A stretch of DNA of 45,529 nt from Pleurotus ostreatus/Saccharomyces cerevisiae fusant (Eukaryota > Opisthokonta): NCBI GenBank assembly GCA_024196135.1, contig JAMQCK010000170.1, positions 1 through 45,529 on the forward strand, given 5' to 3'. Every line of letters begins with the position of its first letter. Positions within the stretch are counted from its first letter, which is position 1. Position numbers and translations under genes: made by a program. Shown piece after piece: positions 1 to 38,113 of the stretch. The notes under the pieces are model-generated. The model saw only the letters and a program-made list of their open reading frames with translations. It was not told where the DNA came from and searched no databases.

Positions 1-175
1 AAAGCGACTCAAGAGTCCCAGAAGAACAAGAGACAGAAAGGAAGACGCACCACGCCTGCACGGCCAGCTGCACGGTGCCTGCGATCATCGTCGCGACGAT
101 CTGGCACCAGAATATGGGCTGGCTGCCGATATACGCGATATGACTCCGGTGAAAGGTGAGCATGGAGCAGCTGGT
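1..175 (-). pseudogene. OPT transporter fragment with internal deletion
   Basis: Read on the minus strand this is a decayed piece of a gene closely related to the intact OPT transporter at 4481-9294. Bases ~118-170 match the exon around 7390-7445, and bases ~2-117 match the exon and following intron around 5736-5852. About 1.5 kb of gene that should lie between them is missing. The join is in frame (…YIGS then PIFWCQ…), and the GT donor of the downstream intron is kept. Residues conserved in the intact gene are altered (LTFDWSQIAYIG reads LTFHRSHIAYIG), and the short segment before it has lost residues. The KVPPR motif of the family lies in the deleted part. No start, no other exons and no long frame remain, so this is a pseudogene remnant. 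It touches the window edge, so more of it may lie outside. Confidence 0.8.
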
Positions 176-677
176 ATAGGTCGCACCTCAAGGCCCCTGT
201 CAGACACTGAGATCGCTCATGAGTCCCGCGTACGCACCCGGTCGACTTAGACCGCTCCTTGTTCTGTACAAGTCCACATTGAGATTTGGGACGATGGAGG
301 CAAATAGGGCGTTGGGAGATCACGACTAGACACGCCACGACAAAGGTCGTTGGTGGCAAGTCAGCCGGAAATTGTGGCGACCAGGAGGGCAGTAGTATCT
401 ACCTACTGACTCGTTGATCGCTCGGATCGGGGCAGAGGATTACGGATGCAAGCTGAGGTTCGGACAGGTAGAGGACATAAGTGTATTCGATGCTACAGAC
501 AAGCCGAGATTGATCAAGTTTCACGATGCATCATACCACACGTGTGCAACGCATGGACGCCTCCAGCGCCCAGAGTGGCGCGCCGCGTACATGATCTATA
601 CTAACTGTATCCGCACGACCTCACTACATATCCGTGTGAGCATCGATCTCCATGCATATTCAGAAGACTCACCACGA
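176..677. other. No recognisable gene
   Basis: Frames here are short or overlap the neighbouring family A gene antisense. No protein motif, RNA gene or clear repeat was seen. Confidence 0.5.
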
Positions 678-1127
678 CTACGAGACTCGCAGAAGCCATT
701 TCGGTTCTTCCTCCGTACCCAACTCCTTCTTCAGCGCGTCAACGACCGCCGGGTCAGGCAAGCTACGCTGCGCCTCGCCCCGACCCTGATTATCCGTCAA
801 GACCAACGCGAACTCGATGTCCCGGTTGCGCAAGGTCGGATCGACGTAGACCAACTTGTATCCGGCGCACGGGAGCTGGTATCTCTCGCCGAGGAGATCA
901 CAGACCACTTGCTGTAGCGCCTGTTCGTGGTAGTCATTGTCGTACCCTTCTGGTTTGCGGTGAAGGTACGTAGGGCAACGCGAGTCGCCCTTGCAGAACC
1001 TGTGGTACATTTCTGGCGTGATTGCCCAGCCCAGGATGAAATGGCGCGAAACAGGAGGATGGAATCTCTGCCATGGACGAGAGACCGGCGAGGGAGATGG
1101 GTGGATAGCTTTCCTCGTGCTATGCAT
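678..1127 (-). CDS. Family A protein, copy A1 (unknown function)
   Basis: Uncharacterised protein of about 149 residues, homologous to the genes at 34844-35436 (A2) and 38376-38894 (A3). The shared core runs from a [HR]xxLGWxxTxEM/LxxxxC segment to a C-terminal block like VLTDNQGRGEAQRSLPDPAV, followed by VDALKKEL. Between them lies a second conserved part (LPCAGYKLVYVD in A1, LPCASYKLVYLD in A3). The reading frame stays open upstream to about 1229, but the first in-frame ATG is at 1127; a 5' exon cannot be excluded. Unlike A2 and A3 it has no F-box gene beside it. I do not recognise a domain family. The size, the several Cys/His residues and the lack of a signal peptide or membrane segment suggest a small soluble protein, but no function is assigned. 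Confidence 0.6.
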   Translation of the reverse strand: MHSTRKAIHPSPSPVSRPWQRFHPPVSRHFILGWAITPEMYHRFCKGDSRCPTYLHRKPEGYDNDYHEQALQQVVCDLLGERYQLPCAGYKLVYVDPTLRNRDIEFALVLTDNQGRGEAQRSLPDPAVVDALKKELGTEEEPKWLLRVS

Positions 1128-2152
1128 GCGGTCCGGAGAACTGCGCTGAGCGCGGGTGTTGGAAGATGTGGTCGTAGTGGCCAAGGTCGGCCGCTGGTCA
1201 GAGCTGGAAAGAAAGTCAAGTCTCGCCACGCGTAGGCTACTTAAACGCCAGGTCTTGGGGTTGATCCGGGGCTGATGGCATCAAACTGCATTGTTCTCGC
1301 GAGCTTGCAGCGGACCGTGAATCCGATTAAGCACAGTCATTGTCTGCTACATGGAGATTTTCTGCCTAACCGAATTCTCTTCCCGTCTCCGATGCAATGA
1401 CAATATTGGCAATCGCCATTGTCTCCAGCCGGCTCGAGCGTCCAAGCGTAACTGCTGAGTGAGCTTCTATCGCATCTCATACATGGCCCACCTGCCGCGA
1501 AGCCCGAGCTTTGAGTACTTGCGCATTGTGCGTGACACTGACAGGCGAGATGACCACCATTGTTCCTGTTATTGCCTTGCATTGTGCCCCTGTCATTGAC
1601 GCGGCCATTCAGCCGCTTACCCCGTTTGAGGGCCAATAGGCGTGGTAACTTCTAGGTCTGTCCATTGTTCGAAGACATGGTGCAGACACCACACCTGGAA
1701 CTCGATATTCCCCGGCGCATACTGCAGGAATATCGTGAGCTAATTCTGAATAAGCGAAGCATAAAGGCGACGCGTGGATTGTGTTTTTATGGGTGGCATT
1801 TTGATCGGTACGGCCTCCGATTGGCTGGGCCTCAATATGCCCTTTCAATCGACCCGCGGTCTTTATCCAAAGCAGATTCAGAATATTCGCTCGATAAACG
1901 TGCAGTAAGCGCCGGGGAATAACGAATTCCGGGTGTGGTGAGAAGCCAACTGAGCACCGCTGTTGATAGCTCCAAGGACTTCTACGGATGCCCACCGAAT
2001 GCGGCACCGTAGTCAACAACAATGTTGACCTTGTACATCGCTGATTTAGCTGGAATGGCATTGTATGCATCGATATAAAAGCCCTGAACGTAGCACGGAC
2101 AGAGCGGCGTATCCCATTGCATCCGTCACTGACTCACTGCACTCATCACATC
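1128..2152. other. Intergenic, no recognisable gene
   Basis: Several short overlapping frames on both strands lack motifs and plausible exon chains. This stretch presumably carries the promoters of the flanking divergent genes (A1 on minus, the 504-residue gene on plus). I see no F-box remnant here, although the paralogues of A1 are paired with one. Confidence 0.5.
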
Positions 2153-3860
2153 ATGTTACCTCGCCACCTTACCCTCGATCATGGCCTTCCCAAGGACGCA
2201 GGGTTCTACACATCGAGCGACTTGGTGATAGATACCAAACTCCACGCCCTTTCCTACACCAGCAACCCGCGCAACCTCGAGGCTCCTTTCTACGGGCTGC
2301 ACAATACGACCTTGTCGGAACTCTTTGATCGCCACCTCATCACGCATCCGCAATACGTTCTTTACACATCGAAGCATGAAGCTCGTACGTGTGTTCTACA
2401 CACAACACTGTGCTCATCATGACTGAACTGCGATCCCCCAAGATTCGATTATTAAACGCCTGAACGACGAAGCGCTTGCAAAGGAAGCAGCAACGTCTTC
2501 CGAGGGGTCGGCTGGTTCGGACTCGGACACGACCTCCTCCGAACCCAGCTCGAGTTGTGAGCATCCCACTTCCGCTTCTTGGAGTTGAAAAGCTCACGTC
2601 ACGCATAGCGCAGCATTTTGCCACCGATCCTGCGTCTACGCCGCCACTGTCCGAATGTAACGCTCTTTTTCCACTCCGAGAAAAGCGAAGTCGACTGACG
2701 CGGTGTATAGCTGTGCCGTCCGAAGATGGCCACTCACATTCTGACGAAGCCGACGAGAGTGCCGGCGTAGTCGGTCCTATGGGAGACGTCGCCGAGGCGG
2801 CGGGCAGCGTTGCCGAAGATGGCGGGAGCATCGCCGAGGTTGCAGGCAGTGTTGTCGAAGACAGAGAGTCCATTGACAGCGCTGAGAACCGCATTTCCGA
2901 CGATGGTAGTGTTGCCGATGCCGAGAGCAGCATTGTCGAGTATGGTGGAGGCGTTGTCGATACCGCGGGCAGCGTCGCTGGAGACAGTGGGAGAGCGGTC
3001 GATGCCGAGGGAAACACCGTGGAGGCTGGAGACTACGATGGTATGTGGTTGTGGTCCTGGTAACATGTCGCTCATGGTCGACTTGTAGCCGATCGGATGT
3101 CGATCGCGTCCATGCACACAGTGTCCGTCCCGGAGGCACTCTCAGGTGTGCCTGACTTCGCGGGTATCTTCTCCATTGTCATCGACATGGAAGGAGGCCC
3201 GACGCAAGTTCCGCCATCGAGACGCAACGTCATTCAACTTCCGCAGAGGAGCAGAGGCACCGCGGAAACTGATCAAAACGTGGACGCTCAGCAGCCTGAG
3301 CCTGAGGCCGAGTCTGAAACGCAGGCTCGCAAGCGGCGCGCGGCCCAGGCGTGTAGTCTATACGATGGTGAATACTTGCTCTGGGAGCGGGTGATCTCTT
3401 AGAGGAGGATAAGCACAACCCGGGTCGAGGTGCGCACTGGAGCCCTGGACCGAATCTTGATGATCCCCAGATCAACAAGCTTCTACAAGAGGCTCAGAAG
3501 GACCTGATCGACTATCTCTTCATCCTGTTCTACCTCGTGGACAAGAACGCGAAGACCGTCGTTGTTCGCGCTACTGCAGGTGTCTTCTGGTGCTGGGCAT
3601 GCATTAATCGGGAAGATGTACCACTGTACACCATGCCTACCCCGAACTCCGACTTACGCCAGTCCCTCACGCTGAGCGAGCGCGCAAAAGCCGACGCTCT
3701 TATTGGGAAGTGGTCGGAGACTTTTGTAGTGGGCAGGCTGAATTCGGACGCGGAGCTAACGAAAATGAGGAAGAAGGTGTTCGAAGTCATCGGGAACGAT
3801 GCTCCTGTCGCTCTTGTCAGAAAGAGGCTGGTCACTAGGGACCAAATGGAGAACATGTAA
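2153..3860 (+). CDS. Uncharacterised 504-residue protein with acidic heptad repeats
   Basis: Five exons join in one frame: 2153-2384, 2443-2556, 2609-3040, 3089-3367 and 3403-3860, giving 504 codons and a TAA stop. Each intron has a GT donor and AG acceptor and is 35-58 nt long. I do not recognise the family. Residues 1-77 form a compact region (PRHLTLDHGL, SELFDRHLITHPQYVLYTSK). Then comes a Ser/Glu/Asp-rich low-complexity part. About eleven degenerate acidic heptads lie at roughly residues 177-259. After a basic RKRRA stretch the last 150 residues look folded, with helical stretches (LIDYLFILFYLVDKNAK, then GVFWCWACINREDVP). No signal peptide is visible. It is likely a fungus-restricted protein expressed from the region divergent to A1. 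Confidence 0.6.
2789..3034 (+). repeat. 21-bp coding repeat (acidic heptads)
   Basis: About eleven degenerate 21-bp units encode heptads such as AGSVAED, GGSIAEV, AGSVVED, SSIVEYG, GGVVDTA and GRAVDAE. Each has V or I near the middle followed by D or E. The units lie inside exon 3 of the 504-residue gene. Confidence 0.65.
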
Positions 3861-4480
3861 AGGCAGTACTTTGTAAATATCGTCACAATTTGGGCTATCG
3901 ATGCAGCACTGGATAATCAAAAATCATACCGAAGAGAGTGTCATCGCAAGCATGAGTTGAAACAGACGTCGGAAAAGCCAACGAAGAAGCACAGTGGGTT
4001 TTACAGGTCGAGCCAGATTTCCACGAAAAGAGAAAGGCGTCATATTCGTTTCCCCGCGGACCTGATTGATTAGCAGAGAGTCGAGACAGAGTTGAAGAAG
4101 CTGGGGCAATAGCAAGGGTAAGCTGGCGTATTGACGACCTGCGGCAGTGAGAGCTTTGCCTGGCTGGTTCTTCTACAACTGATCACATAAATCGGCACGC
4201 GTAAGCCATCGCAGCTCCCATGTCTTGAGCGCTCTGTTCAACGCGGCCAGCAGTGGAGCCGCGAGGATGAGTACCCAAACTGAGACTGAAGCGCACAGTG
4301 CCCAAATGAAGCGCACAGTGCCCAAAGCGTGATAGCGGTGTAGCATACGCAAGCTAAAAATACAATCGAAAGCATCTCGAAAAGCGTCCGGCCATCTACA
4401 GAAAACGCAAACCCTTAGACACGACGACGACAAAGGCTACTGCAAGATGGGTCTGCGCGTCGCGTCAACACCGCCCGAGC
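3861..4480. other. Convergent intergenic region, no gene seen
   Basis: This is the space between the 3' ends of the 504-residue gene and the OPT transporter. The short frames have no motif. It holds one small tandem duplication at 4287-4326. Confidence 0.5.
4287..4326. repeat. 20-bp perfect tandem duplication
   Basis: The unit TGAAGCGCACAGTGCCCAAA occurs twice head to tail without mismatch, in noncoding DNA. Confidence 0.9.
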
Positions 4481-7400
4481 TCAGTGCGTGCCCGAGCACG
4501 TCCCCACGCACCCGAATGACTGCCCCTGGTCGAGTCGGCGTAATGGGGTCGACGACCAGTCCAGCGTGTTCTTGTGGACCGTGTTGCCCCACCAATTCTG
4601 GAGCGAGTTGGCGCCGATGGTCCCGTTGGCAGGGTACTGCAAGCTACGTGGCGAGGAGCGGCGTCAGTTTGGAGGGGAGGTGAGTTTCGCGGGAAGCTAC
4701 GCACCAGAAGTAAACGGCAATAATCCCCAATGCCGTGCCAGCATCGAGGGCCGCGGATAGTACATCTGGATGTCAATGTAATAAGCGGGACGGGAAGAAG
4801 CCGGAGAAAGAGTCAATCGCACAATTATATTTCGTCCAAAAGCCAAACCATCGTCGCCGTACTGCAGCCGGGGTGAGTTGGGTTCGCGGGAAGCGGGAAG
4901 GCTCCGAAGAAGGGGGAAAAGCAAAAAGGGACGCACTTAGGTACTGGAAAACAAACCCGACTGTCGCCCACCCCACGTAGTTGACAGCGGTGGCAGGCGG
5001 TATATCCGACGTGCCAGAGAATACAAGGGGGAAGCTGTGGATGGGGAGCTTAGTACAAGGCGTCGGATTGGATTTAATGGTTGAGGACTCACTTGAGGTA
5101 ATTTAGTATGGTCGTAGGATATTTCTTCGTGATGAGCCATAAGATGACAGGGCACGCCGCCCCGATGAGGAAGAAGAACGTGAGAGCTGGGGGTAGGGAG
5201 GTCAATTGAGACGCCGTAAGAGTGATTTTGAAGACGCCGTTGACTAGGTGGTCGACGCCGTCGCCTAAACTCCCAAAACTCAGAAAAGACACGCACTATA
5301 GTACACTTGTCCAGCCGAGAACTGGAGCTTTGGGCCGATGACGCCCCACTGGGATAGAGGGTCAGCAAGCTTGCTTGATGCCCTGCTTCGCGAAGACCAC
5401 TCGGCGACTTACAATGATCGATGCGGTACCGAAGACTTGTGTAGAGGGGCAGGTAAAGCTAGGATGAGGGTGAGTTTATCGTTCAGCGAAGCTGGGGTAT
5501 TGTCTCGCGTAGGTGAAGGAATTCGCGTCGCGGACGAGGGAAGACATGACCGAAGAGGAAACAAAGCTTACTTATCGCGCTGGTTCTGGGTACACAGGCC
5601 CGGTATGTTGGTGAACATCCTGCGGAGATTGAATGTCAATCAGGATCCCTCAACTCGCCCAAGAGATAGTCGCGGGGGAAATAGGGAGCGGGGGAGTAGG
5701 AAAGCGGAGGGGGGCGTAGGGATCGGGGGAGTAGGAAAGCGACTCAAGAATCCGAGAAGACCAAGAGTCAAAAATGAAAACGCACCACGCCTGCACGGCC
5801 AGCTGCACGGTGCCCGCGATCATCGTCGCGACGATCTGGCACCAGAACATCGGCCGCGGCGGCACCTTCATGTAGTGCCCGAGCTTGAAGTCGGCGGTGA
5901 ATTGCATGGCTGGGGGAGGGGGTGTTAGTTGGGTGCGCGTGAGGTCTGAACTGTCACTTCAAGCGACCAAAGTCCAACGACTGCTCACCCTGCGCCATCG
6001 TGATATATCCATACGTCTTGAACATCATCATCGCGACGGGCTTGCCGGGCAGCATGAAGCCGACGATGAGCTCGGTGATGACGCTAGGAGGTGCGTGTTA
6101 GTGTATGGTTTTTGCTTGGGGAAGATGAAGGTCGGTGGCAGAAGGGACGGTCAGCGGGGAGGAGGACGGTCGATGGTAGAAGGACGATAAGTTGGAAGAA
6201 GGATGGTCAGGAAACGCACTTCAACCCAATTTGTCGATTCGTGACCGCCTGGATCATGCCGATGGGGACGAGGTAGATGAGGGCTGGGGAGAGAATAGAT
6301 CGTCAGTATTTTTATGGGCCAGAGGATAAAGCCAAAGGTGCTCACAAATGATCAAGGCGACCAGCAACGCCCAGATTGTCATCCCCGACGGCCAGACCTC
6401 GATGCAGACGCAGGCGAAGATGAAGGTGACGACTGTCGTTTAGCGGTCGTATTGGGCGACGAAAAAGCCGTATAGGGCGAGATAGTGTCAGGCGAGACGT
6501 GGCAAGCGAGGTAGTGATAACGCATCGAGACCAAGGATGGCACGCGAGTGTTAGCGATAGCAATGCAAAGGAAGCAACGAGCACGGTCAGTAAAGCCCTT
6601 CGGATAGTTATCAAGTTTCTCACCGAAGATAGCGATGTAGTGCCACTCGGGCACCTGCTGGTACCGTGACATCAGCCGGGCGTGGATGTCGGGCTGCTCG
6701 CGCAGGGATCGCTTCAAGTTGATCATGATGGGCTTGTAGAAGTGGATGGCGGCGTGGCTGGGGAGAGGTGAGCCTGGTCCATGACTCCATACGATGGCGA
6801 AAAAACTCGAAGAACGCTCTTGCTAGACTCGCATGAAGCGGGAAAAAATGAAGCCACTCACGTCAACGTCGCCGAAATCGCCAAGAACGACAGCCCGTAG
6901 CACATCACAAATGTGATCGAGAGGTAGAGCGGGCTGTACATGTGGTACGCGTCGACGTCGATGGTCGCGGCGACGGTGAGGATGCGCGTGAGGTTGTACT
7001 CGCTCCCAGTGTTGTCGTAGGCGATGCGGGAGGAGACGGGCATGTATTGCGCGTAGAAGGCGTTGGTGTACTGGGCAAGGGTGGACGTTAAGGAAGACTG
7101 AGAAAAGAGCGAAGACACGAGAAAGGACAGGGAAACAATGATACGCACGTAGAGTATCGGCGTAAGGAACCCTAAAGAGAGAATTAGGTCATAGATCAAG
7201 GCCGAAAACTTGTAGGACGTACAGAAAAAGAACAAGAACCCAATGATCACATTCGCCTGTGCCCACCCTTTAGATAGCTGGGTTAGTCCCGCGTACGACG
7301 GCAGCTGCATAGCTCAAAGGTGCTTACATGGTGTCGCAAGTCTGCAGGCAATGTGAGCTAGGAAGACGCGTGAGGCAGTCAAGATACTCACGGGCTGCCA

Positions 7401-9294
7401 ATATACGCAATCTGACTCCAGTCAAAAGTGAGGATGGAGAAGCCGAGGCCACTGTGGTAGCTGCATGACGCGGGATATGATGAGTATGCTTATTGAATTT
7501 TGAAACACTGGTTGCGCACCCAAATAATTGATTGACTTTCTGCGAGGGAGGGTCTGGTCAGCTTCATTCCTAGACGAAGCTACTATGAAATTTACTCACA
7601 ACGTTATTCGGTGCTATCCAGCACACCCAGGTAAAGACACTATAAATTCGGTCGGTTAGAAGGGAGACCGATTAAGAAGACGGTCAACACTCACCTGAGC
7701 GCCTCAAATAGATACCCGGGGAAGAAATCTGTATGTGGTGCATGAGTAAAGGTGTTCAGTGCGTGGGTGTGAGTGGTCTGGGGCGTGGGAGGTATGCCAC
7801 GGAAAAGCGAGCGAGTTTCCACGGTGATACAAGCGGAGCGTCTCCGCGGCGCACACGCAACCCCGAGGGCATAAATTAGCCTCGGCAGGAATGCGCTGGT
7901 GATACATGGCGGATAGAGCAACAGGAGAGCAGTACTCAGAAGTTCATGGGGTACTAAAAAGACTGCAAGGACAGCGGGAAACTCACACCAAACGAATGCG
8001 CCGCCAAGCGCGAATGCGAAGAACCGCTCGCGGGAGATGCCGCCATACTGCCCGACACCGGCGTAGCTTTGCGAGTGCAGGGTGTTGAAGAGCGCGCAGG
8101 AGACGAGGGTGTTGGGCCAGACTAGGTGGGAGTTAGTGCGTGTTAGACGGTATTTGAGGCGGTTTCGAATTCATCAGAGCTCGGGGTGGGGATGTGGCGT
8201 TGGGGCGTCAGCGGCACAGCGAGCACGTTTGAGAGAGAGAGCGAGCGCGTTTGTGGAAAAAAAGCAAAGTGAATGGTTGCATAGTAAAACCAACGTACTC
8301 ATAGAGGGCGGCGCAACGAGGAAGCGGCGCGCCACGCCACCTGCGCGTGTGATCAGATACGACCGACGTTTGCCATATTGGGCGCCCCACCTATGCTGAA
8401 CCCGATGAGCTGGGTGGACATGACGAGCATCCATTGATCTATGGGGCGCGCGTAGCTTCAGTGACCAGCTGCCGAGGGATCTGGTAATGGGAGACGCACA
8501 GGCGAAGGGCCAGACTTGGTTGTAGTACACGCGCTGGACGGCGACAATGTCGGTGGCATAGGCTGTCTCGGCGCCGACGGTGGCCATGATGGTGACGAGG
8601 ACCTGGGTGAGAGTCGTTAGCGTTTGAGGGGGTAGGGGTTGAAGGAAGGTCGTACGTGTTCCTTGATAGTGAAGGGACCAGGATTTAATGGGATGGAAAA
8701 TATCGACACATTTGGACAGATGAACGCCCAGAGCCGACCGAAGGGGAAGATGAGGAGTTGCGCGACGAGCTGTGAGGGATGTGATTAGCATTTGTGATTG
8801 ACCTTGTAGGGACTGTGGCGCACCCCGGTAACAGTGACGCTAGGGTAGCGGAAGTAGAAGAACTGGTTCATGCCGGGGATGACCATCGCCCAGATGACGC
8901 CAAGGACCCAAGCGCGAATGGTCGACGCAGGCATGGAGGGGTCATCGAAGTTGGCGACGGCACTGCGGACTTCGGGGTAGGGGGAATCCTCGTCTGCGTG
9001 GTACGATGAGCAGAGCACTTTGCGAGGGGAGTAAGAACGCACCGAGGATCTCGGACTTGTTATCATAATCATAATTTGGGTCGAAGTCTTCGTATACTTC
9101 TGACCCAGCGCTCGAGATGACAGATAAGTGGTCGTGGATGAGGGAGGGGGCTGATTCTGGGTGGCGTATGAGTACTTGGATGCGAGAGGAGTTGTACGAC
9201 ACGCACGGATGGATGACTTCTCGACGTCAACATCTTGAATAGTGTATAGCGTATTGCCGCGGGGTTCCTCGTCCCGGGGAAGGACGTCTCTCAT
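4481..9294 (-). CDS. OPT-family oligopeptide transporter, full length
   Basis: Proton-coupled plasma-membrane importer of small peptides of the oligopeptide transporter (OPT) family, peptide-transport clade. Some fungal members move glutathione or tetra/pentapeptides; the substrate cannot be read here. The chain starts at ATG 9294 (MRDVLPRDEE…) and passes through roughly two dozen short exons. It ends in the family-typical WWGNTV…SFG region with a stop at 4481-4483. Diagnostic motifs are SPYPEVRSAV near the N terminus, SIPLNPGPFTIKEHV (NPG motif), YATDIVAVQRVYY, LFNTLHSQSYAGVGQYGGISR, APNNVKVNQLFG, and the KIPPR-type motif as KVPPRPMFWCQ. About 14-16 hydrophobic segments are seen. I traced every exon and found no frameshift. 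Two introns are unusually long: one near 7738-7990 and one of about 190 nt near 6430-6620. An in-frame stop upstream of 9294, with no ATG between, supports the start. A decayed relative lies at 1-175. Confidence 0.93.
5682..5741. repeat. Short direct repeat in an OPT intron
   Basis: A 25-bp purine-rich unit at 5682-5706 recurs at 5717-5741 with one mismatch (period 35 bp). It sits inside the intron just downstream of the KVPPR-containing exon. Confidence 0.85.
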
Positions 9295-10081
9295 CTCATG
9301 AGCCTCGCGCTCGGGGCTGGTGTCTGCAATCTTGATTGTGTGGTGGGGGCGGGTCCGGAGAGTTCGTTGTCCAGTAGTCGGGCGCCAGAACGCGCGTTGA
9401 GACTATCTGGATGCCGGGAAAAGCTGTGGCGCGCGCGATACTACTCGCAAGGGATATAGGACACGGAGCTCGGGAGTATGTGGGTCGAGGGGATGCCGAG
9501 GGAGTCGTTGAGTGCGAGAGGGAAGGGAGATGGTGCGCTTCGGTGTCGACGAGAGGGATGATAGGGTGCGGGGATGGGGGTCAGGAGCAAGCCGGACAGG
9601 CGCGCCAGCCGGAGGGGGGCGCAGGAACGGTCAGCGGCACAGGCCGTTATCTGCCTCAGCTCTGATCGTTCCTGATCCCGCCCGCCACGCGACTTCCACG
9701 TGTGGCTTCCGTCCCCGGAGAGCGCGCCATCTTTCGTCTTGCCGTCGTCGTCTCGCCCGTTTCCGCCGTTGGAAAAATTCGATAGGAGTCGTTCATCTCG
9801 TACTCTATTCCTGAGAGCTCGTCCCGGTCATTCTGACCCGCTCAAACCCCTGCTGGCACTCAGTCCCTGTGACCCCGCCGACTCCGGCGGTCCGCTCGTG
9901 TGCCGCTCCGAGATGCTCGCTGGCGCTGGGAAACGATGTCTGCCCACTTACAGCACACCGCCATGGTCTAGACGGCGCCACCGCTGTCATTCGTCACCCG
10001 TTCGACAGATTGAAGATGGGCAGAGATCCCAGCGATGGGCCTGTCGCCGCTATAGCCTGGTGACCAAACCTCCGACGCGAT
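9295..10081. other. OPT upstream region; no gene
   Basis: GC-rich DNA between the OPT start and the inverted-repeat unit. Plus-strand frames here are arginine- and glycine-rich with no motif and look like chance frames. Confidence 0.5.
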
Positions 10082-10103
10082 GCGAAGCCGCGTTGGAGGG
10101 CTT

Positions 10104-10229
10104 GGTAAAATACGTCAGAATTTTGGCTGACAGGCCTTATGATCGAATTTGTGACAAAACGTGCGCGACGGCATTGTCCGAGGCAGCCAAAATTTCCTTT
10201 TTGGGGACTAATAGGGCGCCGCGCGACGC
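10104..10229 (+). repeat. Left terminal inverted repeat
   Basis: It matches the reverse complement of 15781-15904 with one substitution (GCATTG versus GCAATG) and one 2-bp indel. It contains its own palindrome, AATTTTGGCTG at 10119-10129 against CAGCCAAAATT at 10184-10194. A 26/32 weaker match continues outward to about 10082. Confidence 0.92.
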
Positions 10230-10316
10230 GGGCGACGCGTCTGTCTCCCGCGTCCATGAGACCTTACGCGCACTCGGCATACCTAGTACTTCAGTAACGC
10301 GTCGCTCTGAGCGCAC

Positions 10317-13300
10317 ATGGCGCCTAAGAACAGCTCCTCAAAACATCATAATATTTTCTACTCGGGTGATGTTCCTGGTGTGCGGGCAAACGCGTCCGCA
10401 GGCGCTAGCACAAGCCGGCTCAGCTTCAAGCCAAGTAGCAAGCGGAAGTCGAGGGCGAAGGCTGAGGCAGACGCACGGCCGTCTCAACTCAGCCCCCCTC
10501 CCTTTTCCACCTCTTCAGTCGAGATCGAGCGACCAGCAGCGCGCCCATCGTCGCCGACTTCGCCCTTGGTCCAGCCACGGCAGACATGGGATACGCCTCC
10601 CACGTACCCTTCGACGTCACTTTGGTCGACTTTTGAGGCCTCTACGGCACCACGATACGCTCCGGGAATCCCGCGTGATGAAGGACCGCCTCCTTCAGCT
10701 GCGACTTTTGAACTGGACAGCCCATGGCGACATACGACCCTCATCGTCCCTTCCGACGTGTCCCCCGCAGATACACGTATCAGTGAGCCTCCTCTGACGC
10801 CGATTCTACCCCGGGTCGCTTCTTTACCCTTCACGGATGCGTCGCCTATGGACGACTACTCTGATCTTCCCGAGATCCCGCGCATTCGCAAAGAACGTCG
10901 GTGGAAGCACGACAAGATCCAGGAAGTTCTTAGTACGCTTGTCGACAACGACGTATCCCTAATCTCGGTGCTTCTTGCCATCCTCGACTCAGGGACCGCT
11001 GCATACGAGACCTACCGTGGCCGCTTCTATCGAGATGGCGACGGGTCAGTCGCACGGTTACTCGATGTTATCTACAGCCATAACCGCGGGAAACGCGATG
11101 TTGACGAGTGGATGCGCGAGCGAGCCGTAGACATAGTCTGCGAGACTGTGTACGACGAGATGGAGAAGGCAAAGGAGAGCCTGCATGCGGTCTCATCGGA
11201 GGTGTCTTCAGACTCGCTGAAGCTATGGAACCTCGCCGCGATGACGCGCTCGGCGGAGACACCGGCTTTCAGTGCCGTCCTTAAGGCTGCTACGGAGAAC
11301 GAGAGGTCGGTCGAACGGAATGTCGTGCGAAAACCCAACCTGGTACGTACCTTGGAGGCTCAAAATGCGTCCTTCTCATGCTCCTCCTAGAGTCAACAGA
11401 TCATCACTCTGCAGTGCCATCATATTCGGTCACGGAAGTCAGCGCAACTGCAGCAGATACTCGGCATCTACTTCTGGTCCGAGGGCTGCCCGCGACGCGT
11501 TATTGAGTTTCTCGGCCGGTGCAGCTTGAGCACATCGTTCACCTCGGCCCTTAGCGTCATCGAGCGACTGTCTGACAGCAGCGTCGCTCAAGCAAAGCGC
11601 CTCGTTGTACACGGCCCTCATGCAATCGGCTATGACAACGTCAATGTTTGCATGTCGGAGCACGTCGAGCAACGGCCAGGCGCCCCGCCCAAGGTTAAAT
11701 CCGGTACCTTCGGTCTGATCTACGAGCTGCGCGGTCGCCCCCGTTATCACCACATGCTTCTTGCGCCGATGAAGAGGAACTTGGAGACGGCAAGCGACCT
11801 CACGCTTGCGGACGTCACACCCTCTCTCGAACAATCCCGATGCCTGCTTCAACAACTCAAGACCATCATTGTTCGTGCACTGACTACCCACCACGCCAAA
11901 TTCGCGTCGTACGCGGACTACCCCTCGCTTCAGCATCTCCCTCGTCGGCCGCTCTCGCACACCGAGAAGAACGTCTTCCATCCGCTTCCTATCACGACCA
12001 TCGGCGAGGGCGATATCACCGGCAATCTCAACTACCACGACCATGTCTACCTCGATAAGCTACAGCAGAGCGCGGACGACGCAAGCTCGAATCTATGTAC
12101 CCACGCCATACCACTCTATGCTGACCTGCACACCATGCGCTGCGTACGCAGTGGGCAGCGCCGTCGGACGGGCGACGTCAACTCCTACACTGACCGTCAA
12201 GTTTTCCAACTCGGATTTGGTCTCTTTCATATGCTCATGAATCTCATATGGGCGATTCGTAAAACGCATTTTGGCTCCGAATCACAGCTCGGCAGCCTCT
12301 CGCGCTTCTTCAACGTCGTGATGGGCAAAGTTCGACTCGCAAATGACCGGCCTGACTTCCATACACTACTCGCTGCCCTTGAGCAGATTCGGGATGGAAT
12401 TCTGCTTGAAGCATGGCGTCGCGAGTGCGGCAGCAGCTCGCTTGATTCGTTTCATGAGTCCCAACCCTGCGAAGACGATCTCCTAGCCATCGCAGAGCGC
12501 ATTATCATAAAATACGCCACACCGGTGGACACGAGCGACGTCGACTACCAACCTGATCCTGCCCACGAAAATATCCGCCTCCTCCTTCGCGATCTCCTCT
12601 TCGTCGCCGAAATCACACGCGCTACAGCAGACGGTGACTTTGGGCGCATCGAGGACACGCTTCCGGATGTCGCGCGATTATTCAGAGGCGCTGGATACAA
12701 CAACTATTCGACCGAGCTGATTCACTTCATCCACAACGTGAAGAAGGTGTGGACACCGGAGTTCGCGTAAGTTGCTCATAGTGCGTATTCTTCTGATGCT
12801 AACCAATCGACAGGGACATCATGCGCGACAATATGCTCGTCAACGTCTCCGGCCTGCCTCACCATTTCATGGGTTGCGACATGAACATCGAGCATTTGAT
12901 TGGTTACATCAAGGTCCGTGAATTTTTGGCTGTAAAGAGCGACATCTCATGCTGTCTTAGTATTTATTCACTGCCAAGGGTGTCCACTCTAGCTGGGATA
13001 GGTTGGCGAACGCGTCGGGCGCGGTTGCGGATTTAATGGGCTTGAAAAAGACCATTAATGATCAATTCAACCTCTCGTACAAGAGTCGCACACACTCCAC
13101 GCCAGATACGTCTGCGCTAGTGCGTCGTGTCGCTGCTGATGTCCAGCTCAATGGACTACTTGACCACGCGCCCTCTCGCGAGACGCTCTGCAAAATCAAG
13201 CCGGCGAAGGATCTCCATGCGGCAGGGCATGCAAGCTTCGTTTCGTCCACCTTGTCCACCTTCAACAAGAACATGAACGCCTTCAGGCACAAGACTGGTG

Positions 13301-13392
13301 TTGCGGGCGAAGAGGAGGAGCAGGATGAGCTGGAGGCGCCCGATTACGCGAGTGTATTACCTGGCCACGACGAAGAAGACGAAGGCCATTAG
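10317..13392 (+). CDS. DUF6589-like protein (candidate transposase)
   Basis: Four exons (10317-11342, 11391-12766, 12814-12913, 12961-13392) give 977 residues. The first 180 residues are Ser/Pro/Thr-rich and probably disordered, with basic patches. The rest resembles the DUF6589 proteins of Agaricomycetes. It has a helical N-terminal part (RKERRWKHDKIQEVLSTLVD), then IGYDNVNV at about residues 421-428 followed by KVKSGTFGLIYEL. Next come a LFHMLMNLIWAIRKTHFG block and a C-terminal MLVNVSGLPHHFMGCDMNIEH, then KTHSTPDTSALV-type sequence (here RTHSTPDTSALVRRVA). The end is acidic. The D of YDN and the D/E of DMNIEH are plausible catalytic-type acidic residues, but that is inference. The gene starts 88 bp inside the left inverted repeat and ends overlapping the helicase stop. 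The family assignment is from memory of conserved motifs. Confidence 0.75.
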
Positions 13393-15715
13393 ACATGCAT
13401 ATTATTAACTTTGTATGCTACCTCCCCCAACACCGTTCTCTCCTTGGGCTCATTACCGACGGCACCTGACTCCTCGTCCTCGCTATCGCTGATAAACTCC
13501 TTCGACTTGTACACCTTCCCTTCCTGCCCCTTTTGTCGCTTCGCTGCAGGCTTCGCAGCCTTCTGCGCCCTCTGGCTGACAATTTCCATGCGTAAGTCGT
13601 TGTCTGCCGAGCGCATGTGCTCAATTATAGCCTGTGCCCATTCCCCTCCCCATTCCTCCGACCGCTTGAGAAAAGCGGTCACATCCGAGGCGACGCGCAG
13701 TACGTCCAGGCAGACCTTACATAGCGCCTCAATCTCCCCATCCTCCAGGATATAGTACCGAGGACGTATGGCGCGAAGCGGGTAATCATCGTGTACGTCC
13801 TTGCGCCATAGCTGAAGGGTCTCGCGTAGGACATCGCGGTTGTCCTTTGTGCGCTTGGGGTGGTCTGTCTCGGAAGCACATGGGCGCTTCTTCGGGCGTT
13901 GCTGTTCGCCTGATGCGACGTCTTCGACGGACACGGAATCGGGGACATAAAGTGCCGAGGGAAGGTACTGATCGAGGGGGATTTCACTGCAGTTATCGCA
14001 GCAGAAGTCAGTCACATAAGTGAGTGCTTTTGAGGGGAACAATTAGCGCCGCGACTGAACATCGTACTCGAGTCTCACCTTCAGCGGCCTCGTCATTGAG
14101 GTATCGAGCGAAGAAAGATCGGCGGCATGATTTGGACTGTATAAATGCGGCATAGGAGTGTGGCATGCGCTCCTTCCGCTTCGATTTTTCGGTAAGCGTG
14201 CCCGCGTATGGTCTGTCGACATCGTCTGCGTCACCGCAAAACTCGGAGAGATCAAGCTCTGCAACCCAGCTTTCGTAGAAGAATATGACGAGCCCCATCT
14301 CCGTGGGCGAGCGCATTGTGCGACCAGCAGCCTGAAGGCTGTCTGCAAAGGTTTTGCGCTCATTCATGACGCAGGTTAAATCCACCTTCTGGTGGTCGAC
14401 ACCCTTGTCGTGTGACCCCGCGTTAGCCAGCGAAGCAATCCTTGAAGACGGCACGTACAGTCATCTCCATTGAGGTCGCAACAAGTACGCGACATGATCC
14501 CTTAGCGTCAGCAAAGGCTGCATGCGTCTCGGCCTTGTACTGCGGCGACATATTGCTGTGTTGATGCCGAACGACGCCTTTATCTCGGTAGGCAGGCGGG
14601 ATGTGTTGGCGGAGGAAGAGCGCGAGCTGAACCGCTTGACTGCTGTCTTCGACGGCGATGAGTACACGAGGCTGAGTTTCGAGGTTGAAAGGTCGCGTGA
14701 GGAAGCACAGAAAGTTGTCGAAGCAGGTGGCGCTACCGACAACTTGATGGCAGGCATACATCAGATTTGGGCGGTTGACGGACAGCTGTATGGTCGTGTA
14801 GTTCGCGCGGAGGATGGATTTCTCGATAACCTTGAGCATGTTGCGCGGAGCGGTTGCCGTGAGTGCGAGCCAAGGAACGTACGTGCCGAACAGCGCCTTG
14901 ATTTCGTGCAGGCGTCCATAGACCTTGCGGAACGCGCGAATCCCGTGTAGATCAAGACCGACTGTGTAGAGAGAATGAGCCTCGTCGATAATGATCGCTC
15001 GGACGCGCTGTCGAAAGCCAGGCTCGCGTAGCAGCTGTCCGAGGCGAGAGTAATGGCCCTCGGCGCTCTGCAAGAGCTGCTCTGGAGTCGCGAGAATGAC
15101 CTGCACGTCGCCGGGGCGATTCTTCCCAACGTCGTGTACATGTGCCTGCAGATGACCGATGGGCACGCGTTAGACTCTCAGGCGGTACGGCACGGACCTT
15201 CCAGAAGCCCTTGTCTCGTGTCGTCTGCTCGTTCACAACAAGAACGCGAAAACCGTACACTGATTCAATTGACGACGCCTGTTGACCATCCATTAACACG
15301 ATAGCACTCGTTCGACTAGATATATGCGTACATGTGAGGCTTGTATGCGCGTCAATGGTGTCACTATAATCGTGATACCATTTCTCCTTTCCAGGTAGAC
15401 GTGTAGGATCGCCGCAAGAGTCTTTCCGAAGCCGGTCCCAGCGTAGAGGAAGGTATCCTTGCCGCTGAGTATAGAGAAGGCGGTAGCGAGCTGTTCGACC
15501 TTCGGGCAGTGACGTTCTCCTGTACGATACCAGCAGAGTAGGCAGAGGTCCAGAGCGGTCGCTATAGAGCATAAGGGTCGTAGTCCGAGTATATAAGCGA
15601 GTGGTAGCGAGGCGCGATTAATGTTGCCGAGCGCGAGTTCGAGCTTGGTTTGAGGGATCTGTGCTTCGAGCCAGCTTTCAAGAGACAGTGGGTGGGTTGG
15701 GGGTGTATCAGACAT
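13389..15715 (-). CDS. RecQ-like superfamily 2 DNA helicase
   Basis: ATP-dependent DNA helicase, 704 residues, from five exons read on minus: 15715-15332, 15278-15198, 15145-14459, 14403-14079 and 14026-13389. Motif I is GTGFGKT (residues ~93-99), motif Ia-like is IIVTPL, motif II is DEAH (~209-212) and motif III is TATAP (~251-255). A second helicase lobe carries RVLVATSMEMT and motif VI as QAAGRTMR (~408-415). The C-terminal 210 residues hold CCDNC and CKVC cysteine pairs and a basic, Lys-rich tail ending in an acidic stretch. It lacks a recognisable HRDC domain. Its N terminus is short, so it resembles the multicopy RecQ-type helicases of basidiomycete repeats rather than a housekeeping RecQ. 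It converges on the DUF6589-like gene; the TAA of this gene (13391-13389) overlaps the TAG of that one (13390-13392). It may unwind element ends during transposition (inference). Confidence 0.85.
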
Positions 15716-15780
15716 TGGATTAAAGCCGTGGCATGAGTACGGTAATAGTCGTGGCGGTCGTAAAGCAAGAAGTAACTGGA

Positions 15781-15904
15781 GCGTCGCGGCGCCCTATTAG
15801 TCCCCAAAAAGGAAATTTTGGCTGCCTCGGACATTGCCGTCGCGCACGTTTTGTCACAAATTCGATCATAAGGCCTGTCAGCCAAAATTCTGACGTATTT
15901 TACC
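15781..15904 (-). repeat. Right terminal inverted repeat
   Basis: Reverse-complement copy of 10104-10229 with about 98% identity, including the internal AATTTTGGCTG palindrome. It ends 66 bp upstream of the helicase start codon, so it should contain that gene's core promoter. Confidence 0.92.
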
Positions 15905-15949
15905 GGTCCCTCCCATGCCGCTTCGCTTGTGGCATGGGAGGGCTCCGGT
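15902..15949. other. Strong hairpin at the right edge of the element
   Basis: CCCTCCCATGCC (15908-15919) pairs perfectly with GGCATGGGAGGG (15931-15942) around an 11-nt loop. After a small bulge, ACCGG (15902-15906) pairs with CCGGT. The structure straddles the outer edge of the right inverted repeat and has no counterpart on the left. Confidence 0.85.
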
Positions 15950-16924
15950 CTATCGCCGCTATCGCTGAAGGTCGGCGGAACCAAACCTATCTTCGTCAAA
16001 TTCCAACGGGAGACTTTCTCTATCGAACTCTGGACTCACTGTCGCCACTGCGAGTCCTCTGCGCTCATCGTCTCCCGGCAAGAGGAAACCTATCGTCTAG
16101 CGCTAGTCTTCTTGTGGGCGGGCAAGAGCCCGAGCATGTTCCCCTGCAGGGCTCTATCTCTGCGCTACTGTATGCAGCTTCGACAAGGGCGTCATCCTAT
16201 TCAGACCCTCGGTTTGAATAGGTCGTTACTGAGCTTTATTGACCGGTCCCTAGTCTAGTACTGATGCGGAGAAGGAAGGTAGTCATTCGTTCTCGTCATC
16301 GCCATTCGACGGTCGGAGCATGTCAAGTTCGCCTCGATAGTACCCGAGCCCGAGCCTTCAAAGCTGTTTATATCTCCCTCGCCTTCGCGCACAGACCTTC
16401 CGATATCTACAATCTCAGCTTCAAATTGCTGTCGGGCGAATGCAGAAAGGAAGATCGCCTTGAGGGGAGGGTGGATAGGAGAATGCTCTTGGGTGTCCTA
16501 CTCCCCATCTTCCAAGTCCCTGTCGATCCTTTGGTGCCCGCAACTCATTATGGTCGTGCTTCTCCGAGTGAGTCTTGGGCCGATTCGGACATGCTGGCTG
16601 TTCCTGACTGCGCCTTTCGTTCAGGAAACCTCATATGAAGGCGTCAATGCGCATTTCTATGGTGCCACCCTTCCTCTCCGCACCGGCTACTTCTGTCACC
16701 CGTACAAGGGTGCAGGATTGTCGAGCCGCAAATCGTAGCCTGACTCCCCTTAGGTCTTACCATCAGTTCCTATTTTAATTGCCACAAATGTGAATGTTGC
16801 CTCAAAAGAATCCCCGACTTCGGGTCGATGTTTATTTCCTCTTCAGCCCTTTGTTCTGTCTATGTCAAGTACGCCTTGGTCGTACGGTCTATATCATATC
16901 ACGGTACTGCCACACCAATAGTCA
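15950..16924. other. No recognisable gene
   Basis: The first ~45 bases share short blocks (TCGCCGCTAT and CCAAACCT) in the same order and orientation with the left flank near 10040-10070. A weak plus-strand frame at 16460-16738 has hydrophobic stretches but no motif and no convincing exon partners. Confidence 0.45.
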
Positions 16925-21053: not shown

Positions 21054-24000
21054 ATGTCTTTCTTTGACTTTGAAACCTCAGACTTAGAGAAGGAGAAGCA
21101 AGAGTTCCTCGAAAAGGGCGCCGCGAACGACGAAAAGATCGATGTTTATACGTGGGGGGAGGAGAGCTATGACGGTCTTGGCGACGCGCTCCAGGAGGGC
21201 GGCGATGAGCTCAACGATGAGACGTTCGGCGGGGCGGGCGCTGTAGGTGCGTGAGCGACGTTCAGCCCGACGCATCATCCTGACCGTGAGCTCAGGCAAG
21301 GACTTTGATTTTGGCTCGACCGCTCTACCCGGAGACGAGGAGCGCCAGCAGATCTCCCAGGTGCAGGCGCAGACGCGCGGAACGCCTAAGGAGCTCGCGC
21401 AGCCGCGCTCCTCGGGATTCACGCCCAAGCCCATAGCCCCTCGTGAGCCCCCTCTGTCAATTGTATCCGCTGTATCGAGCCTGATCAACGGCCAGCCCTG
21501 CAATCTGCACCATCGCTCGAGTCGATATGGGACCGCAAGCCCTCCGCGCAGCCCCAGGCGCCCATCCAAAAGCCCATGACATTCTCCCCCTTCGACTCCG
21601 ACGACGCACCCGCGCCCATGCACCGCGGCGCCGCGCAGTCCGGCACGCTCGAGGAGATCGAGGCGGAGATGCGCATGCGTGCGCAGGAAAACCGCATGCT
21701 CGCCGAGCGTCAGCTTCAGCAGCAGATGCTTCTGCGCGAGCAGGAGGAGCGGCTTCTGCTCCAACGTCAGCAAGAGGAAGAATATCGCCGCCAGCGTCAT
21801 CTGCTCCAGGCCGAGCAGCTACAGCGGGCCCAGATCGAGCAGCAGCGCGAGCAGCAGTACCGCCAAATCCTGCTACAGCGCCAGCTCGAACAGGAGCAGG
21901 CCCTTCGTCAAGAGCAGCTGGCGATGCAGCAGCGTCAGGCCCAGGCAGAACTCCAACGGCAGCTGCAGCAGCGCCGCGCGCAGGAGCTTTCCGATCAGAT
22001 GCGCATTGAGGAAATCGAACGTCAGCTTCGCGCTCAGCACATCGCCGCACAGCTTCAAGGCAATCGCCAGTCACCCTTCGATCAGCACCGTCGCTTGCCA
22101 TCAGGTCATGGCGGCGTTGGTACTCTTGCTGATCTCCATGGGCAGCTCATCGCCGAGCAGCAGCGCGCCGCCGCTCGGCGCCAGCGTTCACAGTCGCCGT
22201 TCCAGATCACGCCGGAGATGCTGCAGATGCTCTCGCCACAGGAGCGCCTTCAGCTACAGCAGCGCCTTCTCAACGAGGCTGCGCAGGCTGAAGTGATGCA
22301 GGGCATGTCGCCAGCGGAGCAGGAGTTGCTTCGCGAGGAGGCACGCCGCAAGATCATCGAGGCCGAGCGGATGGAGGAGAAGCGCCGCCGCAAGGCATCC
22401 AAGCTGCACTGCATGGCGCGCTACAACGACCTCATGACACAGTCGGACAAGGACTTCATCACAAGAATTCAGGTCTCGCAGCTCGTCTCGCAGGACCCCT
22501 TCAACGACGACTTCTACGCTCAGGTTTATGCCGCGATCGTGCGCTCGCGTATGGGGCTGCATGCGCAGGACGAGCGGGTGCTCAAGTTTGGGAACGTGGG
22601 TGGTGTTGGGCTCGGGTTCTCGCAGGGCCATAGGAGCAGGAGACCGAATGCGATGCAGCGAATGGAGCAGCAGGTCGAGCGGATCATCAGCAATGCGCGT
22701 AAACGGGAGGAGGAAAAGAGTCAGCATTGTGAGTTCGCACTATCGTGGTATGCCGGACTAGGATCCTGACGGCGAGGGGCAGCTCTTCATGCACTTCAAG
22801 GCGCCCTTGGCAAGACTTCGGGTAGGAGCTACAAGGCAGCTCCGCGTCAGTTGCTCCAGGTCGACTCTTCCGGCTCGGATGCACATGCGCATATTTCCAA
22901 AGACGACGCGAAGGACGCTGCTGCTGAGGCAGCCAAGCTCGGCCGCGAGGCTTTGGGCATCACTGGCGAGGTATGTGCAGTCACGAAGAATCCAGAATGC
23001 ATGTTTAACAGGGGGTCTATAGAGCAACGGTATAGTAGCAAGGAAGCCCTTCACGACTCGCGAGGTCTTGATGCGTCTGGAGCACCTATACGACGTCGTC
23101 ATGCAAGCTGAGCGCCTGAACAACTCGCGTGTTGAGGAGGGTGAGGAGGGCTTTGGAGAGTGGTAAGCGCGTTCAGATTTGGGGTATGAAGACATGCTGA
23201 GTGCGAGCTAGGCAAGCGGAGTACGACAAGATTCGCGAGCAGCTTGCCAACGGCATCGAGCTGTCGGTTCCTCTTGAGGCTTGGTGAGTGTCTGATCATC
23301 ACGCGCCGAGCTGTGCTGACATTGAGTAGCGACCCTCCGCCCTTCATCTCGCTCCTCGGACCGACCAAGGGCAAGCGGCTGCTTCCACGGTTGACTCGCC
23401 ACCTGACCACGGAAACTTCCCTGGCGATGGTCGCACTGCTTGTTGCTGGGTTCGACAAGCTCGACGTCGTTCGCAACGCACCGCTTTTGGACCTCCCTCC
23501 GGGCACGCCAGGGCAGGCGGAGGCGGAAGCGCAGACGCAGGCTTTCCTTCTCAGCGTCATGCAGTCTCTTCTCCCTATCGTCGCCAACCTGGAGCTTCGC
23601 CTCGTTACCGGCATGCTGAGTGTCCTTGTCACCCGCACGGATGTGCCCGCCATCGCTCGTAGCAGGGTGAGTTGATCGTGTCTCTCTCCCGTCGTGGATG
23701 CATCCTTACTGATGCTTCTCTAGCCTGGCCTCGCCCTCTTCACTCTGCTCCTCAGTCGTGTAGAGGTCATTCGCGAGCAATCTGCCAGCGGCACCATCCC
23801 TTCGCCGCCGGATGAGGACTGGACCTCCTTCCACACGATCTACGCGCACTTCGTCGAGCTCCTGCTGCCCCATCTCCCCAGTCTCTTCCCCTCCATGCGC
23901 CAGCAGGCTCCGGTGGGTGAGCGTATGCGCACCGATGTGATTGACCAGCCGGTGTGGCAGTTCCTTGCCGCGCTCTTCATTCTCGCGCAGGGCGAGCAAA

Positions 24001-35578: not shown

Positions 35579-38113
35579 CTAAAACTGCACAGGCGCTGGA
35601 TAGTAGCTGACCATCGACGTGTCTGAAGCGCGTGAGAGGTTCTTGTGGCTACATAAATAATGTCAGCTTGCAGGCGGCGAAATTTGAATCACTACTCACG
35701 CAACAGCGCTGTGCCAAGCAAAGGCATCTCTCTCGCCCTTCGGGCAGATCTTGCGTGCGTTGCAGTTCGGGAGAGTACAGCGCAGCCCGCTCCGAGTCTC
35801 TTGCCACCAATGCGGTCTGAGCTCCTCGGCCACGATGCGCTTGAGGTCGCTCGCGTTCCTGACGACGGACCAACGAGAGGAGATTTGCTCGCCATTTCTC
35901 AGTCTGGCGCCGTGCTTGTCGATCGAGTGCAGAAGCTGGAAAGACATGATTAGGCTCGTTCCAGTGGGGTAGAGGGAGCTATGCGTACCGCTGCGCGCCA
36001 GCCCATCGCGAGGCGTTTCTTGCCTTTGCAGGCGAGGCACTCGACGTGGATGCTCAGCGATTCCATATTGGCGAACGTCGCCTTCTTCGGGTCGAGCCCG
36101 CAAGCCGTGATGAGGATCTCTGCGTGCCGGCTGGCTTCGGCGTCGAAGGTTATCCTCCCTGGGGCAGCGTCGGGGTGGTAGAATGGTTTATCGGTCCAGC
36201 CTTTGCTCGCGATCATTGTCGCGAGGGAGATGGTAGTGTCATCCTCGTCGACATTGCCTTCGAGAGCATAGAAGCACTGGTGCATCGCCGCACGAGGGTA
36301 CGGCATGGGCTCCTTGCACGCCTTGTTGGCGCACTTGAAATACGTCGTCGCCAAGAACAGGGGGTCTTCGGTGTCTTCGACCTGCGCTTTGTTGGCGGAT
36401 TTGCCTTTCCCCTCGGCGTCGCGAGGGATGAGAGCGCGAAGGAACGCAGCGGCTTCGGCCTCGCATTCTCTTGCAAGTTTAACGAGTTCGTCGTCCGAGA
36501 GCGCAGATAGCACGTTCGTCGCTCCGGACTCTGCATGAGCAGTGTTGCGATTGGTTCCTTCACCGCGAGCGCAGGCCAGCGGGGTCGCAGCGAGCCGGGA
36601 GCCAGCTTTGGGTAGTCCTTGAGACCCAGTCGAAAGGCACGCCTGCCGAAAGTGTCGGCCGCCGCATCCTTCTTGCGGTAGAGGATCAATGCATCGATGT
36701 AGTCTCGGACCTCCGGCGCCATAGACTTCCAAGCTGCGCGATGATATGGCTCAGCACGGTATGATTATTGGAGGAGCCATGAGACTCACCCTTATCGATT
36801 AGGTCCTCTTTTCCTTCGGCGTATTCGTCGAGATAATGGGGCCTCCAGGATCGCAGCTTCGGGATCTCGTCGCCGTAACCCATCTCTGACAGCTTGCGTG
36901 CGATACTAGACGTCGGTTGGTTGAGTGAGAGGAAGACACGATGAGTCCGCCTACGCACAAATTGGCACGGCGTTGGCAGATACGGCGATGCTCCTTGACG
37001 TCCTCGTCCTTCTCATTCGCGACAAACTCCCTGATGGTCCTGGCGAACTGAAGGGGAACGCGTCAGCATGTCGAAGCACGCGCATGCAGAGCCTGTCCGT
37101 ACCTCTATGCACCAGCGGGACTCGTAGTCTATCTCGTCTTGACGGCGGTGGCGAGCCTTCGTGTCCTTGATCGGCTTGGTTTCGTCCCGGATCCTCTGCG
37201 CTTCTTGGACATTCGCGATGAGCTGGTCGCGGCGGACTGGGCAGAGGTTAAGTATCTTCAGGTCACTGGTGCTGTTGTTGGCGCACCTTTGCTCCCCGGC
37301 AGTCTGTACCAGACGCGTACACCATAGTATGCCGCATTCCTGTCGATTACCATGTATCTGCGAATCGTGAGAAGGTCAGACACGAAAGTCGGAGTTAGAC
37401 AGGCATGGCGTACGCACTTCGTCTTGATGCATTTGTTGCATAAGCGCTCGAAGAAGGCCCAGAGCGCGTATTTTCCTTTGTCGGAGCCGCACTCCTGAAT
37501 CGGTGTCAGCAAGTATGATCACAGCTCGATATCCGCGAAGCCGACGTACGAAGCAATTCGTAGTGAATAATAGATTGATGTATTGAGGGAGACACAAGCG
37601 GCCGTTGTGACAGGGTGGTATGGCGGTCCGATAGTGCTTGATCGTGTACTCCCAGATCCATTTGCAGTTCTTGCGCAGGAGGGTGCCCCGGAGCGCCTTG
37701 CTTGTCTGCGCAAGGCGTAGGATGTCGACCGGATCGCAGAGCTTGAATATCTCGAAGAGAATATCGAGCGGCATGTCGGCGAGCCCTTGGGTGATTCGAT
37801 GGGGATCATCGACTTCGGCATTGTCGTCGCCAACCGCGGGCATGGGCTCGGGATTTACTACTTTACGGCGCTTGTTTGTCCTTGGTGCAGCTATTTTGAC
37901 CTGCTTTTCAGCGGCGGTATTGTCCGTCTTTGATGCAGAAGACTTTGTCGTCCTTGAGACTGGCGATTTTCGGGCGGGTTTCTTGTTCGAACGGGATCGT
38001 GCGTTGGAGGTCCGCCGAGCATGTATGGTGGCAGTCGCGCCTTGCGTATCCTGTTGCGCAGATTTTCGCTCTCGAAGAGCCTTGAGACGGGATGATGAGC
38101 GTGTTCCAGCCAT
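35579..38113 (-). pseudogene. F-box protein, copy 3, with 7-nt frameshifting deletion
   Basis: It is collinear with copies 1 and 2 from MAGTRSSSRLKALRERK (ATG 38113) to a TAG stop at 35579-35581. It has an N-terminal basic region with NKRRKV and an F-box (LADMPLDILFEIFKLCDPVD, then ILRLAQTSKALRGTLL). CGSDKGKYALWAFFERLCNK, ALILYRKKDAAADTFGRRAF and AEILITACGLDPKKATFANM follow, and the C-terminal block is CTLPNC…WHSAVAHKNLSRA. At about 36531 copies 1 and 2 encode MQDL(Q/E)SGS, but this copy lacks 7 nt. The frame before it (…EPIATLLMQ) therefore does not run into the frame after it (SGATNVLSALSDDEL…). No GT-AG intron repairs the break. It is either a recent pseudogene or a sequencing error, because the rest looks under constraint. 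Confidence 0.75.

Follow-up and report, generated by a model that had tools for sequence, protein, structure and literature searches.

Between positions 10082 and 15926 of a 45,529-nucleotide stretch of DNA (hereafter the window), two genes lie closely packed between inverted repeats, one encoding a protein of the DUF6589 family and the other a RecQ-like helicase. This arrangement raises the question of whether the pair is a mobile element in its own right, and if so which protein moves it and to what class it belongs. Protein identity places the host very near Schizophyllum commune, the species of the best protein match (99%). We put at roughly 87% the probability that the locus belongs to AcademH as an autonomous-type DNA transposon, with the DUF6589 protein as its transposase and the helicase as partner.

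The unit that had been placed at 10082..15926 in the original prediction is real, but its edges lie further out. Independent detection recovered inverted arms at 10082-10223 and 15785-15926 (142 nt, 95% complementary), which bears out the repeats of ~125 bp and about 98% identity proposed earlier. In aligned copies, however, the common sequence continues past these coordinates to abrupt limits, 5'-TAGCCTGG at the DUF6589 end and TAGACCGG at the helicase end, 29 and 26 bp outside the arms. The target duplication that was to be looked for is also present and exact, so that the locus is delimited as follows.

10053..15952, no strand assigned: complete transposon, 5900 bp, 5'-TAGCCTGG...CCGGTCTA-3' (ends aligned with 9 other loci, plus the flanking duplication)
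10044..10052, plus strand: left copy of the 9-bp target site duplication, TCGCCGCTA
15953..15961, plus strand: right copy of the 9-bp target site duplication, TCGCCGCTA
10104..10223, plus strand: left inverted repeat core, 120 bp, 99.2% identical to the right core
15785..15904, minus strand: right inverted repeat core
10317..13392, plus strand: DUF6589 gene, 977 aa, exons 10317-11342, 11391-12766, 12814-12913 and 12961-13392 (spliced model plus Pfam)
13389..15715, minus strand: RecQ-family helicase gene, 707 aa, exons 15715-15332, 15278-15189, 15145-14459, 14403-14079 and 14026-13389 (spliced model guided by the homologue P0080)

No gene lies within 10053-15952 beyond these two intact-looking ones, whose coding regions converge and overlap tail-to-tail by 4 bp (stops ending at 13392 and 13389). 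When one repeat arm was searched against the 40-Mb assembly it gave 18 matches, 16 of them forming 8 inverted pairs, a pattern that together with the exact 9-bp duplications at paired loci is not attributable to chance. The window family has one full copy, and end searches for the two other families gave one or two copies each. A search for an empty site with the joined window flanks matched only the window's own two flanks, a result of little weight if the assembly represents one haplotype. As to the surroundings, the transposon lies about 0.75 kb upstream of a minus-strand reading frame (8785-9294) that encodes the beginning of an OPT oligopeptide transporter domain (PF03169, E 8.8e-6, just under the cut-off); the window also holds a PAT1-like reading frame (21576-22769, plus strand, E 7.5e-17) and an F-box reading frame (37376-38113, minus strand, E 4.2e-7).

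The same anatomy recurs elsewhere in this genome. At six of the eight paired loci tested, TAG...CTA ends outside both genes combined with an equal 9-bp flank had exactly one solution each, and the same rule applied to mismatched left and right locus pairs gave 0 hits in 56. The resulting duplications of full elements are TCGCCGCTA at the window locus (C359), TGGACAAGC at C1, CCTTCTCTT at C405, GCGTTGGAG at C333, CACAACGAT at C747 and CAGCAAAAC at C924. Linkage of the two genes between such ends at other loci, which the original prediction had called for, is thus borne out, and counted by contig, ends and duplication occur on six of the nine that carry both DUF6589 and helicase, of which all but C551 entered the duplication test. 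The element at C732 (3825-10809) has both conserved ends, recognised by comparison with C924 (proteins 87% and 89% identical); its flanks are unequal and carry no duplication, possibly as a result of recombination after insertion. No recognisable ends were found at C171.

Eight short paired elements (182 to 1176 bp) have related ends and no intact genes, and seven of them are flanked by an exact 9-bp duplication (C625 has none), which brings the total to 13 exact duplications, six at full and seven at short elements, with no common sequence discernible by eye. A further locus, C420, is a single end only. One short element (C946 140360-141535) consists of window-element positions 1-557 and 5275-5900 at about 98% identity and is an internal deletion. 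Another, C946:262336-262517, retains both window-family ends in only 182 bp, with 36 bp of one end fused to 146 bp of the other, is flanked by the exact 9-bp duplication ATGCTATGG, and shows how little sequence movement in trans may require. The more diverged element at C67:37016-38077 (1062 bp, ends 72-79% identical, duplication GACCCACAA) still has part of the helicase start, 59% identical, and its divergence points to a related family of which no full copy was seen. The original prediction had named the occurrence of the repeats without the two genes as a finding that would speak against it; taken literally such repeats do exist, as these eight elements, but being non-autonomous derivatives they favor a transposon.

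How consistently the two genes keep company can be judged from the whole assembly, in which DUF6589 has at least 24 matches on 13 contigs and the helicase 21 matches. Helicase matches adjoin a DUF6589 gene on C359, C405, C1, C747, C732, C924, C333 and C171, and a helicase fragment at C551 emerged from a profile scan, so that a helicase stands beside DUF6589 on nine of the 13 contigs. Further helicase matches lie inside two short elements with same-type ends (C946 and C67), and one weak match (E 7.5e-4) lies on C680, a contig without a DUF6589 match. The profile scan found no helicase near the DUF6589 gene of C988 within positions 1-8800, and on C1050, C350 and C609, which have DUF6589 matches, the absence of a helicase was judged on at most 3.2 kb each and is of little weight. 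Six pairs are convergent (C359, C405, C1, C333, C171 and C551) and three divergent (C747, C732 and C924); elements with the divergent arrangement, 7.0 to 7.6 kb long, nevertheless have same-type TAG ends. Across eight loci the pairwise identities of the two proteins are correlated with r = 0.958 (C551, with only 208 helicase columns present, was left out), a value reached by 8 of 40,320 permutations including the unpermuted order, although this figure is indicative only because the eight loci are related and not independent. Divergence in step to this degree (r = 0.96) argues that the two proteins travel as one unit, and sequence comparison indicates that the pair is inherited together down to about 20% identity. 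On the strength of the nine paired contigs, the six with ends and duplication, and this co-divergence, we uphold the earlier proposal that the pair forms one transposon class.

The identity of the DUF6589 protein is central to this view. Its Pfam entry (PF20231) describes a family of unknown function, whose members are annotated "hypothetical protein" in many mushroom genomes. The 977-residue product predicted at this locus does belong to it, since the spliced protein matches positions 4-410 of the 410-position profile with E 1.2e-86. A DUF6589 sequence profile run against solved structures gave nothing relevant, only two chance matches (E about 0.8). For two distantly related DUF6589 lineages, the structure models gave DDE transposases (Hermes, P element and RAG1) as the best-ranked matches, and a D-D-E triad was conserved in both; Foldseek alone also placed transposases first, none of them at E <= 0.001, and a fold search among viral models gave one weak hAT-like Pandoravirus match (E 8.7e-3). 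The models support a DDE-transposase (RNase H-type) fold for DUF6589 homologues, which agrees with the transposase role and RNase H fold suggested at the outset. By the fold and triad of these homologues, the candidate catalytic residues of the window protein are D424, D587 and E827, with H622. The predicted fold resembles that of hAT (Hermes) and P element transposases in its RNase H-like core and in a long helical segment ahead of the final acidic residue, but no sequence match to them exists in Pfam or among solved structures. Among 11 DUF6589 proteins scanned by Pfam, the sole family was DUF6589, with otherwise single chance-level matches (E 0.012 or worse). A homologue search with a mixed-lineage DUF6589 profile returned only DUF6589 proteins in the best 120 of 284 matches, those with names all being fungal; animal Academ proteins with a nuclease domain were not reached among these 120.

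The partner protein, originally given 704 residues, is indeed of the RecQ family, but a five-exon model without internal stops gives it 707. The exon ends match those of its closest relative, P0080 from Schizophyllum amplum, and two of the four splice acceptors have AAG, a less usual form. An earlier 691-aa exon model, which was used for the genome searches before the 707-aa model was made, contains DEAD (PF00270, 3.1e-15) and Helicase_C (PF00271, 2.4e-8) domains, and its first 499 aa match solved structures of helicase Q1 (RecQ1; 2.6e-12) and of an 'ATP-dependent DNA helicase' (7a8r; 1.7e-14). P0080 matches recQ_fam at 4.3e-27, yet this lies below that model's own cut-off. It is the DEAD and Helicase_C core resembling RecQ that places the window helicase in the family.

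A known group of transposons with a helicase is AcademH, which was reportedly defined by Kojima in 2020 (Mobile DNA 11:15) as a fungal and animal group within the Academ superfamily. It is described as a helicase-encoding DNA transposon lineage that occurs in fungi, and the excerpted text of PMC10045372 gives duplications of 9 or 10 bp for AcademH and of 3 or 4 bp for AcademX, related there to helicase and nuclease; the view that no superfamily with this pair is known is consequently not supported. Extracts from two further papers state that AcademH occurs at low copy number in Basidiomycota, Ascomycota and Mucoromycota (PMC10799480), and that the domains of fungal Academ copies include PF00270 and recQ_fam (PMC6416283). 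The elements described here have a helicase inside the window element and beside DUF6589 on nine of 13 contigs, 13 exact 9-bp duplications, a low copy number in a basidiomycete setting (Schizophyllum commune, with one full window-family copy) and, by the modelled fold and triad of DUF6589 homologues, a DDD/E transposase. Since the helicase, the 9-bp duplication, the low copy number, the placement in Basidiomycota and the recQ_fam domain all agree with what these excerpts say of fungal Academ and AcademH, we file the element there, a membership that is probable, not proven, as the comparison drew on the written description of AcademH. The present elements also have near-terminal hairpins and two gene orientations. 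If the filing holds, AcademX would belong to the same superfamily by name, but its 3 or 4 bp duplications and nuclease set it apart from DUF6589 homologues, which among the matches listed carry no other precomputed Pfam domain.

Several other classes were considered and rejected. MuDR/MULE elements make duplications of about 9 bp, but none of the 11 DUF6589 proteins scanned by Pfam has a MULE transposase domain. Plavaka and Zisupton were set aside because their duplications, according to an extract from PMC12730594, are 2-3 bp and 8 bp, and hAT because there is no hAT Pfam match and its duplications are usually 8 bp (same source) rather than 9, though the fold is similar.

We think it rather improbable that the element represents a separate, undescribed superfamily, in which a DUF6589 DDE transposase unrelated in sequence to Academ teamed up independently with a RecQ helicase and makes 9-bp duplications. 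The literature searched, whose coverage was incomplete, did not name DUF6589 or PF20231 as a transposon protein, no animal protein stood among the best 120 of 284 profile matches, and a RecQ helicase also occurs in KolobokH, a lineage of another fungal superfamily, according to the excerpted PMC9587614. Against this, all five features on which the AcademH filing is based would have to coincide with the available descriptions. A scenario in which both genes are passengers, host genes trapped between ends mobilized by a transposase encoded elsewhere, is very unlikely: short elements with the same ends are more numerous than the full copy, as noted above, but the same pair lies between same-type ends in several families whose proteins are just 20-50% identical and diverge in step, and the DUF6589 protein itself is modelled with a transposase fold and triad.

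The ends of the element have a further feature, a predicted hairpin close to each terminus.

10063..10106, plus strand: near-terminal hairpin at the DUF6589-side end (DNA folding)
15902..15949, minus strand: near-terminal hairpin at the helicase-side end (DNA folding)

In the window element the terminal 80 bases at both ends fold more stably than every internal window of the same element. Across 16 ends of eight elements, the mean is -16.9 kcal/mol for the 80-base ends and -9.2 for the 1086 internal windows compared (p 4e-9 in a one-sided Mann-Whitney test); nine are stabler than 95% of their own element's internal windows and seven are not, the fraction of equally stable internal windows being 0.055 (C333 L), 0.059 (C405 R), 0.090 (C1 L), 0.099 (C747 R), 0.186 (C333 R), 0.411 (C924 R) and 0.464 (C732 L). 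A hairpin is predicted at all eight ends of C359, C1, C405 and C67, the four families closest to the window. Here the pairing of a 3' arm averages -18.2 with the 5' part of the same end but only -12.2 (SD 2.6, 56 swaps) when the 5' part is taken from another end, a sign of compensating changes that preserve the stems. On the distal side of the hairpin, the transposase-side end TAGCCTGG is echoed by C(C/T)TGGT and the helicase-side end TAGACCGG by ACCGGT. With these end-specific motifs (CCTGG and ACCGG, respectively), the two ends are distinct and each repeats its own motif. Among the papers listed in a literature search, none appeared from its title to concern Academ ends.

Hairpins at all eight of these ends, together with a helicase gene, could also suggest single-strand or rolling-circle movement of the kind used by Helitrons or IS200/IS605. 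We regard this as highly improbable given the exact 9-bp duplications, inverted repeats of over 100 bp, the DDE fold of the DUF6589 models and the lack of any HUH or Rep domain in Pfam scans of the spliced proteins. KolobokH, although a fungal DDE lineage with a RecQ helicase in the excerpted text of PMC9587614, was set aside as very improbable because the same text gives Kolobok TTAA-specific 4-bp duplications against 13 varied 9-bp ones here; the position of the window helicase as a separate opposite-strand gene is not decisive, since one red-algal Kolobok is reported to have its helicase on the complementary strand.

Returning to the AcademH-type transposon that we favor, sequence and modelling document its anatomy, duplications, derivatives and long co-inheritance and the predicted DDE fold of DUF6589 homologues, and a plausible route of movement can be drawn from them. 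The DUF6589 protein would bind both ends, different as they are (CCTGG at the transposase end, ACCGG at the helicase end), cut them with a D424/D587/E827 site and join them to two target strands 9 bp apart, gap filling then yielding the 9-bp duplication. Short copies would be moved in trans by the same two proteins. The frequent presence of the RecQ-like helicase beside DUF6589 leads us to infer that it is a required or strongly favored partner acting on the transposition intermediate, and the hairpins offer it a substrate. It would most likely open DNA at the ends, where the hairpins lie, or clear the strand-transfer complex for repair. One doubtful extension, which we put forward tentatively, is that the hairpins are functional substrates of helicase-coupled DDE transposition, that the RecQ helicase encoded by the element extrudes or unwinds them while the ends are recognized or strand transfer is cleared, that the ends are asymmetric signals, and that this mechanism is common to the whole Agaricomycete DUF6589 family, be it AcademH or a superfamily of its own.

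The transposon class itself has very probably been named already. The chief gain is a likely function, that of a DDE transposase, for a widespread mushroom protein family, and the remaining interest lies in this identification, in the conserved hairpins, which were less expected, and in the question of the helicase. If DUF6589 proteins are DDE transposases, many presumed host genes would have to be relabelled as mobile elements, and annotators would gain a search set consisting of the DUF6589 profile, the TAG...CTA end motif, the 9-bp duplication and the helicase partner gene. Why a cut-and-paste transposon should carry a RecQ helicase is a question common to AcademH and KolobokH, and an intact-looking pair accompanied by short derivatives with the same ends provides a practical starting point for addressing it.
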